The notes below the pieces were generated by a model that saw nothing but the letters and a program-made list of their open reading frames with translations, was not told where the DNA came from and ran no database searches. From Cellvibrio mixtus subsp. mixtus J3-8 (GTDB lineage Bacteria; Pseudomonadota; Gammaproteobacteria; Pseudomonadales; Cellvibrionaceae), in assembly GCF_000766945.1 (NCBI RefSeq), contig NZ_KN266207.1, forward strand, positions 538,531 through 602,530: a stretch of DNA of 64,000 nt, read 5' to 3'. Below, piece by piece: positions 28,775 to 32,394 of the stretch (position 1 is its first letter; each line of letters starts with the position of its first letter). The position numbers and the translations under genes were made by a program.

Positions 28775-29599
28775 ATGGCGATTTCATTTGATTTCAGTAA
28801 CAAAAATGTTTTAGTTGTTGGTGGTACGAGCGGAATCAATCGTGGTATTGCAGAAACCTTTGCCAAATCTGGCGCGCGCGTGGCCGTGGTGAGTCGCTCA
28901 CAGGAAAAAGTGGATGACACCGTACAATCATTAAAAAATCATGGTGTTGCTGATGCTACCGGCTTCGCTGCTGATGTGCGCGAAGTGGAGGCAATAAAAG
29001 CTGGCATCGATAAAATTGCCGCTGACTGGGGCGCATTGGATGTCGTAGTTTCCGGGGCAGCAGGAAATTTTCCGGCACTGGCGATGGGAATGTCACCTAA
29101 TGGGTTTCGTTCTGTTATTGAAATCGATTTGCTGGGAACATTTCATGTGATGCAAGCGGTGTATCCGCATTTAAAAAAACCGGGCGCATCGATTATTAAT
29201 ATTTCTGCACCACAAGCCGAAATTCCCATGGCGGGGCAAAGTCATGTATGTGCGGCCAAGGCTGGTGTCGATATGATTACACGTACATTGTGTCTGGAGT
29301 GGGGCGTAGAAGGTATTCGTGTTAATTCAGTTATTCCCGGCCCAATTGATAATACCGAAGGGATGAAACGTTTGGCTCCCACGGAAGGTTTGCGCGCGGC
29401 AGTGACTAAATCAGTTCCATTGCAGCGCATGGGGTCAACGGATGATATTGCTAATGCCTGTTTATTCCTGGCATCGGATTTTGCGAGTTACATTAGCGGC
29501 GCCGTGATTCCTGTCGATGGTGGTTGGGCACAAGGCGGTGCAGCCCTGGTTGGTGCTGGCTTGGCTGAAATGTTAAAAGCTACGCCAAAACAAAAATAG
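28775..29599 (+). CDS. SDR-family oxidoreductase, 2,4-dienoyl-CoA reductase-like
   Basis: A 274-residue short-chain dehydrogenase with a Rossmann fold. The cofactor motif is VVGGTSGINRGIA, where the usual GIG glycine is Asn. The active-site segment reads SHVCAAKAGVDMITRTL: the lysine is present, but the classical tyrosine four residues earlier is replaced. Peroxisomal and bacterial 2,4-dienoyl-CoA reductases have the same change and share the following EWGVEGIRVNSVIPGPI segment. It probably reduces 2,4-dienoyl-CoA with NADPH during breakdown of polyunsaturated fatty acids. It follows the enoyl-CoA hydratase gene and is likely in its operon. Confidence 0.8.
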   Translation: MAISFDFSNKNVLVVGGTSGINRGIAETFAKSGARVAVVSRSQEKVDDTVQSLKNHGVADATGFAADVREVEAIKAGIDKIAADWGALDVVVSGAAGNFPALAMGMSPNGFRSVIEIDLLGTFHVMQAVYPHLKKPGASIINISAPQAEIPMAGQSHVCAAKAGVDMITRTLCLEWGVEGIRVNSVIPGPIDNTEGMKRLAPTEGLRAAVTKSVPLQRMGSTDDIANACLFLASDFASYISGAVIPVDGGWAQGGAALVGAGLAEMLKATPKQK

Positions 29600-29974
29600 A
29601 TTTAAGTGTGCATTTCCATAGGCAAAATTCCTCCACAATTACCGGCAGAATTTGCAAACCATTTCGCAAATCTGCCGGTTAATTAAATTTCAAACCAATT
29701 GCGTCTTCGTTATTCTCCGTGCAAGCTGTGCTCGATAACTATAAAAAAAGCAAGACAGCATTTTATTTTTTCCATTTTTATCCATAACAATAATTATCGA
29801 GCGTTTCGTTCCAGTATCAACAATGTTTTTTCATCGACGGTGAGAGGGCCAGGTCTCTATCATCATTGCACCGTGTTATTCGTTGTTTGCAATAGCGCCC
29901 TGACAGGATGATGCGTGACCTTTTATAAATCACAGATTCCATCAATTATCTGCTGCTTTTCAAAAGGAAATGTT
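29600..29974. other. 375-base intergenic stretch with a hairpin
   Basis: The only clear structure is a hairpin at 29641-29679. The rest, AT-rich with a polypurine ribosome-binding site near 29965, is presumably the promoter and leader of the GH5-like gene. No gene is visible. Confidence 0.55.
29641..29679 (+). terminator. Hairpin after the SDR gene
   Basis: ACCGGCAGAATTTGC (29641-29655) pairs with GCAAATCTGCCGGT (29666-29679) with one bulged A. It is followed by TTAATTAAATTT rather than a pure T run. It probably ends the enoyl-CoA hydratase/SDR transcript. Confidence 0.6.
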
Positions 29975-31480
29975 ATGAAAATTTCTATTCTAAAAAAGAA
30001 CTCATTGTTAAAAAAATCACTGGTTATAGCGACTTTGAGTGCGCTCGCATTACCTGTATTTGCGTTATCTCCACCGCCAACATCACCATTTTGGAAAGTG
30101 CAAGATGGAAAACTATTGGACCCTAATGGCAAGCCTTTTGTATTTCGTGGTGTCACTGTGGAGCAAAATCTCGCACCTGCACAAGCGTTACAGGCTATTA
30201 AAGACGCCGCGACGCTCGGTGCTAACGCTGTGCAAGTAGAAATTAACGGAAATTTATATCGTCAGGAAACGATGATTACTGGTGAACAATTAAGTGCAAT
30301 TATTAAAACGTGTAAAGAGAGCAAAGTAGTGTGTGTGCTGGAGCCTAATGACGTCGCCGGTTATCCGGACGCAGCGGGCGCCGGTATTCCCGCGACGGCC
30401 GCTAATTTTTGGGGATGGCCCGGTATTCGCGAAGCGATTGATGGGCAGCAGAGTTACATTATTCTGGGTTTTGGTAACCAATATTTAGGGCCGATGCCAC
30501 AGCAGGAATATATAGCTCGCATGCTGACGTACCTGGGGGATTTTTCTTACAGCACCCTGAGTAAATTTATCATTATGGTTGATGGTAGTAATTGGGGGCA
30601 GGATGCAGATAAGGCCATGTATGAATTTGCCCGGCAATATCCCAGCAACGGAATTAATCGCCCCTATCTGCTTTATTCTGTGGATATGTTTGATGCGTTC
30701 ACCACACCGCAAGAAGTTCATGATTACATTGCCAGCTTTGCAGAGATTAAAGCGCCTTTGGTCATTGGCGGTTTTGCGCGGACACCTTACTATCATCCAC
30801 ATAACCAGGTGTCGATTCCGCATGTTGCGCTACAGCTTCCAGCCGAAGCTGTTATGCAATATGCCGAACAATATGGTGTCGGATATTTTGGCTGGAGTTG
30901 GAGTGGCAATAAAAATCCGGCATTGGATGTGGTAACCAATTGGGATCCGAATAGTTTGACCGATTGGGGTAATTTACTATTCAATGATGTAAATGGAATC
31001 AAAGCGACTGCAAAAACTGCCAGCATTTATGGCAATACATCCAGCAATTCCTCAAGCAGCTTCTCAAGCAGTTCTGTACCGGATAAATCAAGTTCTTCAA
31101 TTTATTCCAGCAGTTCGATTCGCACTTCCAGTAGCAGTTCGATAAGAACTTCTTCAAGCTCGTCGATTGCGCAAACCAAGGCGCAATGCAGTTATCAAAT
31201 CCAGAGCCAGTGGGGTAATGGATTTACTGCATCAATTCGCATCAAGAATATTTCCAATACCGTCATTAATGGTTGGGATGTGAATTGGCAATACACTGAT
31301 GGTTCAAAAATTACCAATTTGTGGAATGCAAACTTGAGTGGAGCAAATCCTTACAGTGCTAAAAACTTAAATTGGAATTCTGCAATACAGCCAGGTCAAA
31401 CGATAGAATTTGGATTTCAAGGCAGCAAAAATTCGGCAGCCGCCTCAATACCAATAGTCACCGGTAATATCTGCCAGTAA
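29975..31480 (+). CDS. GH5-like (subfamily 8 mannanase-type) secreted protein with CBM2, catalytic residues lost
   Basis: The ATG at 29975 has AAGGA six bases upstream. A signal peptide (cleavage near VFALS) is followed by a GH5 mannanase-type domain (to about residue 345), a Ser-rich linker (about 352-398, repeated SIRTSSSSS) and a C-terminal CBM2 cellulose-binding module with its conserved Trp residues. The domain keeps the landmarks VDGSNWGQD and FGWSWSGN. The acid/base motif GNEP reads GNQY (Gln169). The nucleophile motif GEFG reads GGFA (Gly266). The LEvHD motif reads LEPND (Asn125), and HMY reads DMF. Both catalytic glutamates thus appear missing, so a binding or sensory role is more likely than hydrolysis. 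Confidence 0.85.
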   Translation: MKISILKKNSLLKKSLVIATLSALALPVFALSPPPTSPFWKVQDGKLLDPNGKPFVFRGVTVEQNLAPAQALQAIKDAATLGANAVQVEINGNLYRQETMITGEQLSAIIKTCKESKVVCVLEPNDVAGYPDAAGAGIPATAANFWGWPGIREAIDGQQSYIILGFGNQYLGPMPQQEYIARMLTYLGDFSYSTLSKFIIMVDGSNWGQDADKAMYEFARQYPSNGINRPYLLYSVDMFDAFTTPQEVHDYIASFAEIKAPLVIGGFARTPYYHPHNQVSIPHVALQLPAEAVMQYAEQYGVGYFGWSWSGNKNPALDVVTNWDPNSLTDWGNLLFNDVNGIKATAKTASIYGNTSSNSSSSFSSSSVPDKSSSSIYSSSSIRTSSSSSIRTSSSSSIAQTKAQCSYQIQSQWGNGFTASIRIKNISNTVINGWDVNWQYTDGSKITNLWNANLSGANPYSAKNLNWNSAIQPGQTIEFGFQGSKNSAAASIPIVTGNICQ

Positions 31481-31587: not shown

Positions 31588-32394
31588 CTAATTGGTGATC
31601 CTCACTAAAAACATTTTAGGCCACTGTTTGCCGGTAACCCAAAAAGCCTTGTGGTTTGGGTCCCACGCGATACCGTTAAGTACTTGTTCGCTATTATCCA
31701 GTTTTACTTTATTTTTCAGCGCCGCCAGGTTGAGTTGCGCCAGTACCTTGCCTGTGTGCGGATCAATTTTCAGTATGCGGTCATCATGCCAGATATTGGC
31801 CCACAAAACGCCGTTGGCATATTCGAGTTCATTGAGCTGGTTGATTTCCCTGTCGCCATCTTTCACTGTCAACGTTTTGATCACATTGAAATCTTCGGGG
31901 TGGTGAAAATAGATAGTCGCAGAGCCATCGCTGCGGATCAGTGATTTTCCGTCGGTCGTTAAGCCCCAGCCTTCGCCGCTATAACTCAAGCTTTTTTCAT
32001 GCTTGAGTGTGGATTTGTCATACACCAGCAAGGTTTTTTCCATCCAGGTCAGCACATACAGTTTGTTATCCAGCAGCGCCAGGCCTTCGGCAAAATATTG
32101 ATTGGGGATGGGTTGTTTTTTGGTAAAGGGTGCAGAGATTTTGGCCCAGGTGCTGGCAGGTTCTGCGATCGGGTAGCTAACCAGCAGCGATTGGTTATAG
32201 AGCCCGCTGGTTTCGTAAAAATGATCGCCATCGACTAGCAAGCCCTGGGTGAACAAGACCGGCTTGTGCGTGCGCTCGGCGATAACTTCATAGCCCAATT
32301 CCTCCGCCGCATTTGCAAATGACGACCAGATGTTCGTAATCACCAGCAAGCTGATGCACAATAGTGAGCGGGAAAGTAACGTTGTAAGGATCAT
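31588..32394 (-). CDS. Glutaminyl-peptide cyclotransferase
   Basis: A signal peptide (cleavage near FANAA) precedes a five-bladed beta-propeller of the plant/bacterial glutamine cyclotransferase family, which converts N-terminal Gln to pyroglutamate on exported proteins. Diagnostic stretches are FTQGLLVDGDHFYETSGLY, YFAEGLALLDNKLYVLTW, SGEGWGLTTDGKSL and NELEYANGVLWANIW. The 268-residue length fits. It is divergent from the DUF502 gene, with 35 bases between the starts, and convergent with the GH5-like gene. N-terminal cyclisation could protect secreted enzymes of the same region; that link is inference. Confidence 0.88.
   Translation of the reverse strand: MILTTLLSRSLLCISLLVITNIWSSFANAAEELGYEVIAERTHKPVLFTQGLLVDGDHFYETSGLYNQSLLVSYPIAEPASTWAKISAPFTKKQPIPNQYFAEGLALLDNKLYVLTWMEKTLLVYDKSTLKHEKSLSYSGEGWGLTTDGKSLIRSDGSATIYFHHPEDFNVIKTLTVKDGDREINQLNELEYANGVLWANIWHDDRILKIDPHTGKVLAQLNLAALKNKVKLDNSEQVLNGIAWDPNHKAFWVTGKQWPKMFLVRITN

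Follow-up and report, generated by a model that had tools for sequence, protein, structure and literature searches.

A window of 64,000 nucleotides from Cellvibrio mixtus subsp. mixtus J3-8 (contig NZ_KN266207.1, positions 538,531 to 602,530, forward strand) carries a gene whose product resembles a GH5 mannanase of subfamily 8 (GH5_8) and bears a carbohydrate-binding module of family 2 (CBM2). With moderate confidence, we read this gene as encoding a secreted, non-hydrolytic pseudo-mannanase, anchored to cellulose by its CBM2, with a rebuilt cleft and serving as an accessory or binding protein. It belongs to a group of 16 sequences (hereafter type A), found in 10 of 21 Cellvibrio genomes, that show 48-100% identity to the window protein, the next matches reaching no more than 38%. 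Type A has probably been converted to another role, most likely that of a sugar-binding helper, and not left to decay.

Eight residues are listed as strictly conserved in GH5 in the account of the mannanase SACTE_2347 (Arg100, His136, Asn177, Glu178, His244, Tyr246, Glu273 and Trp303; PMC3978015). Counted along the alignment, their counterparts in the window protein are residues 87, 125, 168, 169, 237, 239, 266 and 307. At these sites all 71 intact homologues read R, H, N, E, H, Y, E and W, whereas the 16 type A proteins carry, in the same order, Gln (16), Asn (16), Asn (16), Gln (16), Asp (11) or Glu (5), Phe (15) or Tyr (1), Gly (16), and Trp (14) or Phe (2). In the window protein six of the eight are thus changed, and only N168 and W307 are retained. 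The original prediction, made from the DNA alone, had stated that both catalytic glutamates are lost, and the phmmer alignments with mannanases of the PDB bear this out by pairing Q169 with the Glu of GNE and G266 with that of GEF (the deposited 4y7e chain itself carries Ala at this second, nucleophile, place). Its further observations also hold, in that LEPND (N125) stands for LEVHD and DMF (D237, F239) for HMY, and WGQD and FGWSWSGN are kept. These comparisons support the view that the window protein has lost the requirements of the GH5 retaining mechanism, since the two Glu are replaced along with four of the six other defining residues. The gene and the parts of its product are laid out as follows (window coordinates):

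29975-31480, forward strand: complete gene of the type A pseudo-mannanase, 501 amino acids (open frame)
29964-29968, forward strand: likely ribosome-binding site AAGGA, with the ATG 6 bases downstream (read by eye)
29975-30064, forward strand: Sec-type signal peptide (KK, hydrophobic stretch, VFA) without lipobox (simple pattern; cleavage site by eye)
30095-31036, forward strand: TIM barrel of GH5 (subfamily 8-type), residues 41-354 (phmmer, predicted fold, Foldseek)
30233-30241, forward strand: Q87 (canonical Arg) and the new invariant E89 (canonical Val), strand beta-2; 16/16 against R and V in 71/71
30347-30349, forward strand: N125 (canonical His), end of strand beta-3; 16/16 against H in 71/71
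30479-30481, forward strand: Q169 (canonical acid/base Glu), after strand beta-4; 16/16 against E in 71/71
30683-30691, forward strand: D237 and F239 (canonical His and Tyr), end of strand beta-6; D in 11 and E in 5, F in 15 of 16, against H and Y in 71/71
30770-30772, forward strand: G266 (canonical nucleophile Glu), end of strand beta-7; 16/16 against E in 71/71
30773-30838, forward strand: enlarged loop after beta-7, at the position of loop L1 of SACTE_2347, with the invariant YYHP at 30788-30799; gap in 71/71 intact sequences
31037-31180, forward strand: Ser-rich linker (sequence; Pfam)
31181-31474, forward strand: CBM2 carbohydrate-binding module (Pfam CBM_2, profile positions 1-101, E 2.6e-33)

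The replacements are the same throughout the group. The original prediction had raised the matter of orthologues sharing these substitutions, and 16 genes in 10 genomes were found to have Q87, N125, Q169 and G266 in common, together with E89 (absent from all 71 intact sequences), an acid at position 237 and the YYHP motif. Sixty-two columns are nearly constant (at least 98%) among the 71 intact sequences; 13 of these are replaced in all 16 type A proteins, and seven of the 13 are fixed to a single residue (T61, Q87, E89, N125, Q169, G204 and G266). Further changes in the window protein are N61T, W66L and Y/F67A; like R87Q, the new E89 and the insertion with YYHP, these had gone unnamed in the original prediction. 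Within the constant columns, replacement affects 5 of 8 catalytic sites versus 8 of 54 others (P = 0.008; W309 was used for W307, neither being replaced). Since the core changes are common to all 16 type A proteins and the 71 intact sequences keep the ancestral residue at all eight sites, the change at the catalytic site goes beyond chance. The new residues are themselves unusually constant: among the 8 former catalytic positions, type A shows no variation at 5, against 60 of all 318 positions (P = 0.007), and 7 keep one residue in at least 14 of the 16 proteins, against 112 of 318 (P = 0.003). This constancy says that the pocket, in all likelihood, still matters.

Besides these replacements, type A has gained sequence next to the old active site. 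In SACTE_2347, loop L1 (residues 275-284) is described as following directly after the nucleophile and lying beside the +1/+2 subsites (PMC3978015), and the type A insertion falls at this very site. In the window protein it amounts to about 13 residues after GGF, and its Y272, Y273, H274 and P275 are invariant in all 16 type A proteins.

The barrel itself is preserved. A phmmer search against the PDB sequences returned the GH5 beta-mannanases 4y7e, 4fk9, 3wsu and 1bqc at the top (E 1e-47 to 8e-37). The AlphaFold2 model of the window protein shows a confident barrel, with a predicted local distance difference test score (pLDDT) of 90.8 and a predicted template-modelling score (pTM) of 0.90, and the best Foldseek matches of this model are the GH5_8 mannanases 4y7e and 3wsu (template-modelling scores 0.87/0.93-0.94), the window barrel being 28-32% identical to the mannanases in the Foldseek alignments. 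By all three methods the window protein has a GH5 TIM barrel closest to GH5_8. Pfam also recognises the Cellulase/GH5 domain at residues 48-312 (E 2.9e-09), with 37.2 bits against a cut-off of 23.5, and its GH5 model detects 13 of the 16 type A proteins.

With respect to its other modules, the window protein shows both marks of a CBM2-bearing secreted wall protein, namely a signal peptide, recognised by eye, and a full CBM2 (Pfam CBM_2 at residues 403-500, E 2.6e-33). A CBM2 was found by Pfam in all 16 type A proteins. In 14 of them a PKD/Ig-like match lies between the barrel and the CBM2, nine of these matches being above a Pfam cut-off and five weaker (E up to 0.01); the stretch is missing from the window copy (31037-31180) and from G014a. 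No signalling domain was seen by Pfam in the type A proteins, and a simple pattern for a lipobox gave no match within the first 75 residues of any of the 16. The original prediction had proposed a non-hydrolytic binding, sensing or synergy protein. Its non-hydrolytic part agrees with the loss of the GH5 machinery; sensing finds no positive support, in view of the missing signalling domain and lipobox; and binding, if it is to mannan, is weakened by the loss of sugar subsites described below.

A search of the family took in 144 genomes, 21 from the genus and 123 from elsewhere in the family. It listed 121 matches, of which 94 were examined, those at E 3.5e-13 or worse (the 27 weakest) being left out. 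The 94 consist of 16 type A sequences, 2 sequences of a second altered lineage (type B, see below), 75 with the full canonical set and 1 interrupted fragment. Five sequences that had stops or were broken as extracted (L099, L106, L112, L115 and L123) were dropped from the trees and column counts, leaving 16, 2 and 71, respectively. One of them, L123 (G141 contig 5, 145500-146800), is a GH5_8 mannanase gene of another genus of the family, which matches in two separate pieces with stops and so looks interrupted. No type A sequence was found among the matches examined from the 123 genomes outside Cellvibrio. A type A profile run against 369 genomes drawn from the class matched only the window's own genome; among 390 genomes drawn from the order it matched 13, the best score outside the window genome being 264.7 bits versus 524-535 for type A (two matches in G814, at 228-230 bits, were left out of the residue-by-residue comparison). 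A scan of genome contigs gave five loci, assigned to Cellvibrio or to a gammaproteobacterium. Type A occurs in about half of the Cellvibrio genomes examined, with two copies in the window genome and three in tandem in another, and its members have a mean pairwise identity of 0.55 (lowest 0.47). A literature search that covered few subscription journals found no published description of this family.

The phylogeny places the origin of type A inside the genus. In a tree of 89 sequences, type A forms a single branch (support 100/100) with a stem of 1.03 changes per site. A branch supported at 99/100 sets off 13 intact Cellvibrio sequences, together with types A and B, from the rest. A quick tree computed without type B still groups type A with the 13 intact Cellvibrio sequences. 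From these groupings, type A most likely arose within Cellvibrio, from the genus's own intact GH5_8 mannanase. An intact GH5_8 paralogue is still present in the window genome (contig 5, 134384-135481). Separate losses, genome by genome, were considered for type A and rejected, all members being on the one branch.

Type A is under purifying selection. In five close type A pairs the ratio of nonsynonymous to synonymous substitution rates (dN/dS), by NG86/YN00, was 0.097/0.137, 0.048/0.031, 0.115/0.136, 0.114 (NG86 only) and 0.122/0.149; these pairs share sequences in part, so that not all are independent, and they exclude the closest syntenic pair, G000a-G001a. Four intact pairs gave 0.026-0.065. 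All 16 type A frames are open, in 10 genomes, and together with the selection on them this upholds the earlier claim that the gene is not a case of recent decay.

Taken together, these data make the following course of events the most likely one. An intact GH5_8 mannanase would have been duplicated inside Cellvibrio, the catalytic residues would have been lost on the stem of the type A clade, and a larger loop would have been gained at the L1 site, beside the former +1/+2 subsites; type A would then have multiplied, to the two copies in the window genome and the three in tandem elsewhere. The CBM2 would hold the protein, once secreted, on cellulose at the plant cell wall, where the rebuilt cleft may hold a glycan or another partner without cutting it, giving the protein an accessory or binding role in the attack on the wall. 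Of this picture, the losses, the predicted fold, the single origin of the clade, the purifying selection and the set of modules are established by the analysis; secretion, the binding of a ligand and the part played in wall attack are inferences.

Several observations weigh against this reading. In SACTE_2347, the mannose subsites -3/-2 are described as formed by Trp80 (stacking at -3), Tyr81, Trp109, His136, Trp303 and Asn308 (PMC3978015). None of the 16 type A proteins keeps any of the counterparts Trp66, Tyr/Phe67 and His125: position 66 has become L, R, S, T or V, position 67 A in 16/16 and position 125 N. In the Trp109 column, which lies in a gapped stretch of uncertain alignment, no type A protein has Trp; 11 of the 16 have Tyr or Phe, and the window protein has Glu. 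W307 (14/16) and N312 (16/16) are kept. Type A thus does not have the mannose subsites of an active GH5_8 mannanase; the losses imply that the old mannan cleft has been largely dismantled and probably partly re-covered, and the idea that mannan is bound in the ancestral manner is weakened accordingly. Moreover, by mean entropy the catalytic face of type A, defined as the strand ends plus three residues, does not exceed the back of the barrel in conservation (0.88 vs 0.99, p = 0.3), although it does so in the intact enzymes (0.44 vs 0.91, p = 0.002), a pattern that fits selection on the cleft being weaker or varied. The dN/dS values of two type A pairs that are further apart were 0.209 and 0.145 (NG86, with large dS). 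Finally, the divergence between G000 and G001 is 0.438 for type A and 0.133 for the intact paralogue; in three other such comparisons the intact pair is further apart, probably because the intact genes are not orthologous.

Four other explanations were weighed against a binding role. The first, which we regard as rather unlikely, is that the old pocket now contains a relocated catalytic or metal-binding site made of E89, D/E237, N125, Q169 and H274 of the new loop. It would account for E89, present throughout type A and in none of the intact sequences, for the acid kept at 237 and for the invariant YYHP of the new loop. The C-terminal strand ends form the catalytic side of a TIM barrel, and in the model E89 and D/E237 lie near those of strands 2 and 6 (residues 85-90 and 231-238). 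However, the whole catalytic face is not specially conserved in type A, contrary to the intact enzymes, and an exchange of Asp and Glu as at 237 is unusual for a catalytic residue. That such a rebuilt catalytic or metal site would make type A a genus-specific family with a new chemistry on a plant-wall polymer is, in our judgement, an unlikely outcome.

The barrel might also be a mere structural carrier, a stable domain next to the CBM2 on cellulose, or a decoy that captures plant inhibitors of mannanases, the cleft having no ligand. The lost subsite residues, the ordinary conservation of the catalytic face and the CBM2 in every member all agree with this, but the invariance of 5 of the 8 former catalytic positions would be needless in a passive carrier, and no inhibitor partner was found, no search aimed at one having been made; we hold the explanation to be improbable. 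A functionless, decaying former enzyme is very unlikely. In its favour, type A diverges more than the intact paralogue in the one comparable genome pair, and its dN/dS values (0.03-0.15 in the five pairs, up to 0.21 in the distant ones) are mostly above those of the intact pairs; against it stand the open frames and the low dN/dS of the five pairs, which make decay hard to maintain, the identical replacements at identities down to 47%, the several copies in some genomes and the CBM2 kept in all 16. Decay or sequencing error as the source of the replacements was rejected on the ground that they recur in 16 genes of 10 genomes. A weak hydrolase working by residual GH5 chemistry could point to the N168, W307 and W309 kept in the window protein, but with no carboxylate at the acid/base and nucleophile positions and with the Arg, both His and the Tyr changed, there is very little to be said for it.

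Among characterised proteins, type A is alike in fold to the GH5_8 mannanases SACTE_2347 (4fk9), StMan (3wsu and 4y7e) and TfManA (1bqc), the first of which is reported to carry a CBM2 as well (PMC3978015). The window protein differs from them in the six of eight conserved residues and the subsite residues Trp66/Tyr67/His125 that are replaced, and in the enlarged L1 with its YYHP. Non-catalytic GH5 proteins are on record: the 2012 GH5 survey names the fungal GH5_30, a Xanthomonas group, three lipoproteins near GH5_8 and Rsi24C, and allows for alternate mechanisms (PMC3526467). As characterised there, (i) the three lipoproteins are, like type A, apparently inactive and on a long branch; type A is set apart from them, by their description only, in that it lacks a lipobox in all 16 members and has a CBM2, (ii) Rsi24C-GH5 of Clostridium thermocellum has lost the acid/base yet still interacts with crystalline cellulose, and is in this respect a precedent for type A; this GH5 is, however, the extracellular portion of a putative sensor that has an anti-sigma factor inside the cell, and no sensor domain was found in type A by Pfam, and (iii) GH5_30 misses catalytic residues in all its members, as type A does, but is fungal only, type A being bacterial (PMC3526467). 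To the known non-catalytic GH5 proteins type A adds a group that is bacterial, without lipobox, CBM2-bearing, multi-copy and so far confined to one genus.

Because a single genus offers 16 genes with the same rewritten site, a second lineage with a different loss, and intact relatives both in the genus and in the window genome, type A is a tractable case for studying how a hydrolase turns into a wall protein that no longer hydrolyses, and what the benefit is to a degrader of plant walls. There is a warning for annotation as well: as Pfam GH5 scores the window protein above its cut-off, genome surveys will label and count such genes as mannanases or cellulases.

The second lineage, type B, consists of two genes of GH5_8-CBM2 make-up (P0002 and P0003, at L071:11140-12930 and L069:131-1963, both on the forward strand). 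Type B keeps the Arg, the strand-6 His, the Tyr, the nucleophile Glu and the Trp; its Asn-Glu pair has become S-G or S-A, and its strand-3 His T or V. An insertion is found here too at the L1 site, without YYHP. In the tree of 89 sequences type B forms a branch supported at 100/100 with a stem of 1.04, and a quick tree without type A places it among the intact Cellvibrio genes, with weak forks (the support labels of the quick trees, read off once the trees had been re-rooted, may belong one fork away). Types A and B carry their insertions at the same place behind beta-7 and occupy the same gene slot, but their union has a support of only 81/86, and the tree program warned of long branches meeting. 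With different parts of the machinery lost, the two types stand side by side in G014 and G019.

The slot is bordered in the window by two genes, named after their Pfam calls there:

28775-29599, forward strand: short-chain dehydrogenase gene, upstream flank and left border of the slot (Pfam, synteny)
31588-32394, reverse strand: glutamine cyclotransferase gene, downstream flank and right border of the slot (Pfam, synteny)

These two genes adjoin or enclose 12 of the 16 type A genes as well as both of type B. The slot holds one type A gene in the window, two in tandem in G009, three together with one type B gene in G014, and a B followed by an A in G019. G006 and G002 have 37 and 40 bases between the matched ends of the flanks, and in G004 and G007 this interval is taken up by three or four other genes; tblastn detected no traces of type A or B in the slot of these four genomes. 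The seven remaining genomes that lack type A do not have the flank genes next to each other. Several genomes carry in the slot a trio of genes, DUF5666, DUF6502 and a third of similar kind (L065:11763-15781, L064:10367-14315 and L138:3097-7297; Pfam was applied to two genes of L065 only), which is absent from the slot in the window.

Four type A genes lie outside the slot, two of them at other places in G012 and one each in G000 and G016, which share a second site. The second paralogue of the window genome (L067:8289-10025, reverse strand, contig 8) shares its site with the G016 copy (L068); it has FNW for WSW and is located beside a gene for an AraC-type regulator, the regulator being assigned by Pfam for the G000 copy.
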